From Deltaproteobacteria bacterium RBG_13_52_11 (GTDB taxonomy: Bacteria; Desulfobacterota; B13-G15; RBG-16-54-18): 32,728 nt of DNA. Made by a program: the position numbers and the translations under genes. The notes beneath the pieces were generated by a model that saw nothing but the letters and a program-made list of their open reading frames with translations, did not search any database and was not told where the DNA came from. Positions 28,623 to 28,695 of this stretch are shown here, piece by piece (the first letter of the stretch is position 1; each line of letters begins with the position of its first letter). Location of the stretch: NCBI GenBank assembly GCA_001797745.1, contig MGQF01000062.1, positions 3,460-36,187 on the forward strand. The letters run 5' to 3'.

Positions 28623-28666
28623 TTTAATCTTCCTTTAATGGACGTTTAATCTTCCTCGGTTATAAT
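28623..28666 (+). promoter_or_regulatory. Three 11-bp direct repeats (TTTAATCTTCC/TTTAATGGACG/TTTAATCTTCC) upstream of -10 TATAAT; candidate OmpR/PhoB-type activator site
   Basis: TTTAAT at 28623, 28634 and 28645 (exact 11-bp phase), TATAAT at 28661-28666. Confidence 0.75.
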
Positions 28667-28695
28667 GATGTCAAAAAGAAAGGCCGGGGAAGAAG

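Follow-up and report, generated by a model that had tools for sequence, protein, structure and literature searches.

A putative tandem operator for an OmpR-type regulator ahead of a conserved small protein gene and htrA in a deltaproteobacterial genome

Tandem boxes of OmpR-family systems and the present locus

Tandem boxes read by OmpR-family regulators are a known kind of regulation, and the closest known system to the one described here is, by sequence comparison, the streptococcal CiaRH-HtrA system, with the PmrA box as the other close match. In Streptococcus, CiaR recognizes NTTAAG-N5-TTTAAG (TTTAAG-N5-TTTAAG) with an invariant final G and 10 nt to TATAAT; its targets include htrA, which is among the most strongly regulated, and csRNAs with anti-Shine-Dalgarno sequences (PMC3091779). 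The recognition helix of CiaR is VVEVYVSKVRKKL. The PmrA/BasR box of enterobacteria is a CTTAAG-N5-XTTAAT direct repeat to which this OmpR-family regulator binds head to tail (PMC3973317), and T187, N188, V192 and R210 are the DNA-contact residues of PmrA (PMC4660055). AgrR, CopR and PcoR read inverted repeats, that of AgrR being ATKACA-N4-TGTMAT (PMC7380067).

The window, that is the whole stretch of 32,728 nucleotides analysed here, carries a two-component regulator and kinase followed by a triple TTTAAT repeat, a gene for a 78-aa protein (S78) and a gene for an HtrA-type protease (Table 1). As in CiaRH, an OmpR-family regulator is found together with TTTAA core repeats separated by N5 (an 11-bp phase) and placed 10 nt from TATAAT, with htrA as a putative target, assigned here by box position alone and with unlinked HtrA genes included. 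Unlike the CiaR box, the half-site in the window ends in T instead of the invariant G and is present in three copies instead of two; the window helix (VIDVYVNHLRKKV) is identical to that of CiaR at 7 of 13 positions, and the system stands in a diderm context. Given the sixth base, the three copies and the helix, the window box would work like a CiaR box yet is not one. To our knowledge the S78 gene has no streptococcal counterpart, and CiaH homologues are reported from streptococci only.

Compared with PmrA, the contact residues T187, N188, V192 and R210 seem to be kept in the window regulator when the helix and wing are read by eye, whereas N/H replace H195/N196. The PmrA box has two half-sites against three here; TTTAAT is compatible with XTTAAT but not with the first half-site, CTTAAG, and PmrA acts on LPS modification rather than on HtrA and S78. 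In contrast to CusR, CopR and AgrR, the operator is a direct triple at 11 bp and not an inverted repeat, and no efflux genes are present in the unit. Tandem 11-bp direct repeats replacing the -35 upstream of a -10 are shared with the PhoB box, the half-site of which is CTGTCAT as opposed to TTTAAT. The main text of a D. vulgaris DAP-chip paper contains neither a TTTAA motif nor a mention of HtrA, and no description of the regulon, the three-copy box, the S78 family or the RNA variant considered below was found in the open-licence papers searched.

The response regulator consists of a receiver domain (PF00072, 112 bits) and a winged-helix domain (PF00486, Trans_reg_C, 101 bits) with the recognition helix TNVIDVYVNHLRKKV, and the kinase of sCache_3_2, HAMP, HisKA and HATPase_c domains. 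The top NCBIfam models of both proteins are heavy-metal ones, each scoring just under the cut-off; for the regulator, TIGR01387 gave 278.1, marginally below 279.2. The cut-off of 330 bits was not reached with NF007928 (PmrA/BasR; 211.3 bits), nor was that of the PhoB model. Because the regulator falls under the TIGR01387 cut-off and that class reads inverted repeats, the name "heavy-metal regulator" appears doubtful for this family.

Table 1. Features of the window around the TTTAAT triple.
Feature	Position	Strand	Basis and remarks
Response regulator, OmpR/PhoB family, 228 aa	26526..27212	+	PF00072 and PF00486; helix alignment
Sensor histidine kinase, 472 aa	27199..28617	+	Pfam, NCBIfam; overlaps the regulator gene
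Half-site 1, TTTAAT	28623..28628	+	Sequence, kept in relatives; about -50 to -45 from the predicted start
Half-site 2, TTTAAT	28634..28639	+	Sequence, kept in relatives; overlaps the -35 position
Half-site 3, TTTAAT	28645..28650	+	Sequence; 10 nt to the -10 element
-10 element, TATAAT	28661..28666	+	Kept as TATAAT/TACAAT/TATACT in relatives
S78, conserved protein, 78 aa	28696..28932	+	Orthologues, codon-position bias, predicted fold
HtrA/DegP-type (Do family) periplasmic serine protease, 473 aa	29002..30423	+	TIGR02037, Pfam

Promoter architecture and predicted mode of action

The TTTAAT triple lies between the kinase stop (28617) and the start of the S78 reading frame (28696), the 11-bp copies being TTTAATCTTCC (28623-28633), TTTAATGGACG (28634-28644) and again TTTAATCTTCC (28645-28655), followed by TCGGT and then TATAAT at 28661-28666. 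Over 12 bp there is no difference between copies 1 and 3; the middle copy has 7 of its 11 bases in common with the others, one base beyond the six of the TTTAAT core. The preliminary description had spoken of an exact triple 11-bp repeat, which holds for the 6-bp core and its phase but not for the full 11 bp; it had also placed the end of the repeat 5 bp before the -10 region and the repeat itself over the -35, and both placements are borne out, the first by the intervening TCGGT and the second by half-site 2. The last TTTAAT is separated from TATAAT by 10 nt, and transcription would start near 28673. The best -35 hexamer, TGGACG with a spacer of 16, is poor, as expected for an activator-dependent promoter.

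It is highly probable that the triple serves as the operator-activator site of the adjacent regulator, which would switch on S78 and HtrA for envelope quality control. An envelope signal would be sensed by the sCache domain of the adjacent kinase, which would phosphorylate the regulator; the phosphorylated regulator would then bind the 11-bp-phased half-sites head to tail as dimers, cover the missing -35 and hold RNA polymerase at the TATAAT 10 nt downstream, in a PhoB/CiaR-like class II activation, and S78 and HtrA, once turned on, would form the periplasmic quality-control output. Judged by position, the two half-sites nearest the promoter correspond to a class II site of the CiaR or PhoB type that would stand in for the -35; with the third half-site added upstream, one might picture either a second dimer or a dimer that slides. 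Binding of the regulator to the box, its activating sign, co-transcription of S78 with HtrA and the envelope signal are all what we infer from the DNA itself.

The sign of regulation might also be the opposite, with the adjacent regulator binding the triple as a repressor or as a phosphorylation-independent operator so that S78 and HtrA are turned off. Such a role would be compatible with half-site 3 lying within the promoter spacer, and sequence alone is silent on the sign, but it is improbable in view of the poor -35 and the 10-nt spacing, which is the same as in CiaR-activated promoters (PMC3091779). Autoregulation of the window's own two-component system via a TTTAAT box was ruled out, as the window contains no TTTAAT between 23138 and 28623 on the + strand and no ATTAAA between 5644 and 28613.

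Conservation of the arrangement and the candidate reader of the box

The box and the order regulator, kinase, box, S78, HtrA are kept in all six family relatives covering the region (G001-G006). The same-family count of seven out of seven refers to genomes with the region intact, and a further relative whose contig stops inside the kinase gene was left out. Conservation in syntenic genomes had been named beforehand as a test capable of refuting the proposal, and the box was found intact in these relatives and in further families. Families f13 and f74 likewise have a box before S78 adjoining the regulator and kinase; in f74 HtrA also follows, which gives the full order in a second family. The S78 gene is absent but regulator, kinase, box and HtrA are kept in G021, G058, G295, Nitrospirota and a Spirochaetales MAG. 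The predicted switch design recurs in many distantly related bacteria.

In G171 and G392 (f74) a box additionally stands ahead of the regulator gene, which is an autoregulatory position; the apparent upstream box at L098 is a coordinate artefact that duplicates the downstream box and was left out of the upstream-box count. Boxes located after the kinase were also observed in other phyla, including Omnitrophota (L047, L092), Pontibacter (L057), Persicitalea (L098) and Mucilaginibacter (L074), and the genes behind these boxes appear, from a look at their sequences, to encode receiver-domain proteins, a SulP-like transporter, a universal-stress-like protein and an outer-membrane efflux-like protein. 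At the Bacteroidota loci L057 and L098, TAGTTTTG and TAGCTTTG come 10 nt after the box and fit the Bacteroidota -7 consensus, TAnnTTTG. Behind the box in f9 (L270, L285) lie genes for PMT_2-type (ArnT-like) membrane glycosyltransferases, recalling the control of lipid A modification by PmrA.

Of the 44 loci with a regulator helix of the class DVY[VI]N.[LV]R, 19 had a called box, compared with 4 of 66 other loci (Fisher P = 5e-6, not corrected for phylogeny). For 25 of the 44 regulators of this class, no box was called beside the kinase. Other helices were found with other triples, namely DVLVSRLRN with three TGTAAT (L055) and DAYIRLLRR with three TTTCAT (L059). The box accompanies the window-type regulator-kinase pair across phyla, and perfect TTTAAT triples stay with this pair across families. 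Since the box is tied to the regulator-kinase pair, precedes the regulator gene in f74 and is associated with the helix class, the adjacent OmpR-type regulator, already named as the obvious candidate in the preliminary description, is the best candidate and very probably the reader of the box.

Several OmpR-type paralogues are present per genome, and the main rival reader belongs to a paralogous regulator-kinase pair of the same genome (G000:C67; L123:6981, - strand), the regulator of which is 59% identical to that of the window. The box may be real and yet be read mainly by this or another OmpR-type regulator, or by several through cross-talk. Such a reading would draw on the similar 11-bp-phased site before TATAAT that lies 3' of the C67 kinase (CTTCAT/TTTAAT/ATTAAT) and on the location of some f9 and f23 boxes away from a kinase; it is quite improbable, however, as the C67 site is a degenerate box and its regulator has a different helix (DVHVYHLRN), whereas perfect triples keep to the window-type regulator and the f74 box lies also before the gene of its orthologue.

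In shuffled sequences a triple with three or fewer mismatches is expected 0.03 times, against one observed in the window, where TTTAATCTTCCT is also the sole exact 12-mer repeated within 40 bp. A genome scan for TTTAAT-N5 repeats at 11-bp phase, as had been suggested for checking the repeat, revealed exactly two perfect triples in the 2.54-Mb genome, each 10 nt before a -10-like hexamer; the second, on another contig, has a fourth copy in front and precedes a 77%-identical S78 paralogue. Across 375 genomes of the phylum, triple-N10-TAnnnT occurs 31 times, compared with a single occurrence of the composition-matched reversed control. When half-site sequence was ignored and triplicate 6-mers with periods of 7-20 were counted in 84 regulator-kinase loci, period 11 was found 3' of the kinase in 14 of the 84 and each other period in 0-2, and no peak was seen upstream of the regulator. 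The 10-nt spacing is exact in 29 of 37 boxes, and in the aligned boxes N5 spacers of varying sequence go with phase and spacing conserved to the single base. Although TTTAAT consists of A and T only and adjoins a -10, the shuffles, the comparison of periods and the control with the reversed pattern rule out a chance repeat or a non-regulatory A/T-rich tract near a promoter, the base-exact phase and spacing with variable spacers leaving it a negligible probability.

From these comparisons comes an operator code that can be tested, NNTAAT-N5-NNTAAT-N5-NNTAAT-N10-TATAAT. It applies to a two-component family that is widespread and otherwise annotated as "heavy metal", with HtrA-centred envelope quality control as its predicted core job.

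HtrA, S78 and a small RNA as putative targets

The protease scored 494.3 bits with TIGR02037, above the cut-off of 416.2, and contains Trypsin_2 and two PDZ domains. A scan of the 69 bp separating S78 from HtrA revealed nothing resembling a terminator, and HtrA is therefore likely the second gene of the unit, co-transcribed with S78. In G030 and G067, HtrA is encoded away from the kinase and behind another gene, yet a box stands approximately 36-54 nt ahead of its start, which separates the link between box and HtrA from mere neighbourhood. The status of HtrA as a predicted target of the box is thus supported independently by these kinase-unlinked genes.

The S78 gene is preceded by a Shine-Dalgarno-like GGGGAAG at 28686-28692, and its orthologues and paralogues were found in 21 of 395 genomes of the phylum. 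Substitutions fall mainly on third codon positions (591, compared with 235 and 197 at the others); together with the orthologues, this bias indicates a real gene and rules out a spurious reading frame. No family could be assigned in Pfam or NCBIfam, Pfam giving no usable match at E up to 5, and S78 is regarded, from its sequence relatives, as a new conserved protein family. The predicted fold is beta-beta-alpha-beta-alpha (pLDDT 87), for which Foldseek matches were not significant either against the PDB (best E 0.13; RNA polymerase epsilon subunit and ribosomal LX-like proteins) or against viral models (best E 0.07). As for an RNA leader ahead of S78 in the window, no Rfam match and no stable fold were found.

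In related families, the slot that the S78 gene fills in the window is taken by a candidate small RNA of approximately 120-140 nt (L138:4318-4480, +; L139:7189-7030, -; L239-L253; all outside the window). It was observed between kinase and HtrA in f43, with 14 of 22 genomes of that class, as well as in G017 (f10). The layout is box, N10 and TATATT or similar, followed by a conserved RNA that is rich in pyrimidines and carries CCUCCUCCUU loops and a strong terminator. The loops correspond to the anti-Shine-Dalgarno sequence CCUCCUU (G054-type). Folding z-scores were -6.9 and -4.8, covariation was modest, and no match was obtained in Rfam. The TATAAT directly following two repeats in G054 and G017 was considered as a -10 and rejected, since in the alignment it is the third half-site and TATATT lies 10 nt further on.

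The build of this RNA recalls the streptococcal csRNAs and strengthens the parallel with CiaRH. The predicted regulon ties diderm bacteria to the streptococcal CiaRH-HtrA-csRNA logic. Two putative effectors are brought to light, the conserved S78 proteins and a small RNA that has no Rfam entry. It can be speculated, though it is rather unlikely, that the whole represents an ancient trans-phylum CiaR-like envelope regulon in which S78 and the anti-Shine-Dalgarno RNA are interchangeable post-transcriptional effectors filling one slot; if true, S78 would have translation or RNA as its target instead of working in the envelope.

Members of the S78 family were found at loci L122, L219, L220, L221-L223, L225, L227, L232 and L233. 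Segmental duplicates comprising around 45 nt of the kinase 3' end, the box and the S78 gene are scattered in genomes of the family (L236, L237, L238, L189, L234, L235); the kinase remnants are clear in G003 and G004, with only traces in G002 and G001, and in some duplicates decay has left the box but no intact S78 gene. Two distant members (L176, L177) carry a C2H2-like zinc-finger extension (CPICGERFRDIFSFRRHVEKYGAH).
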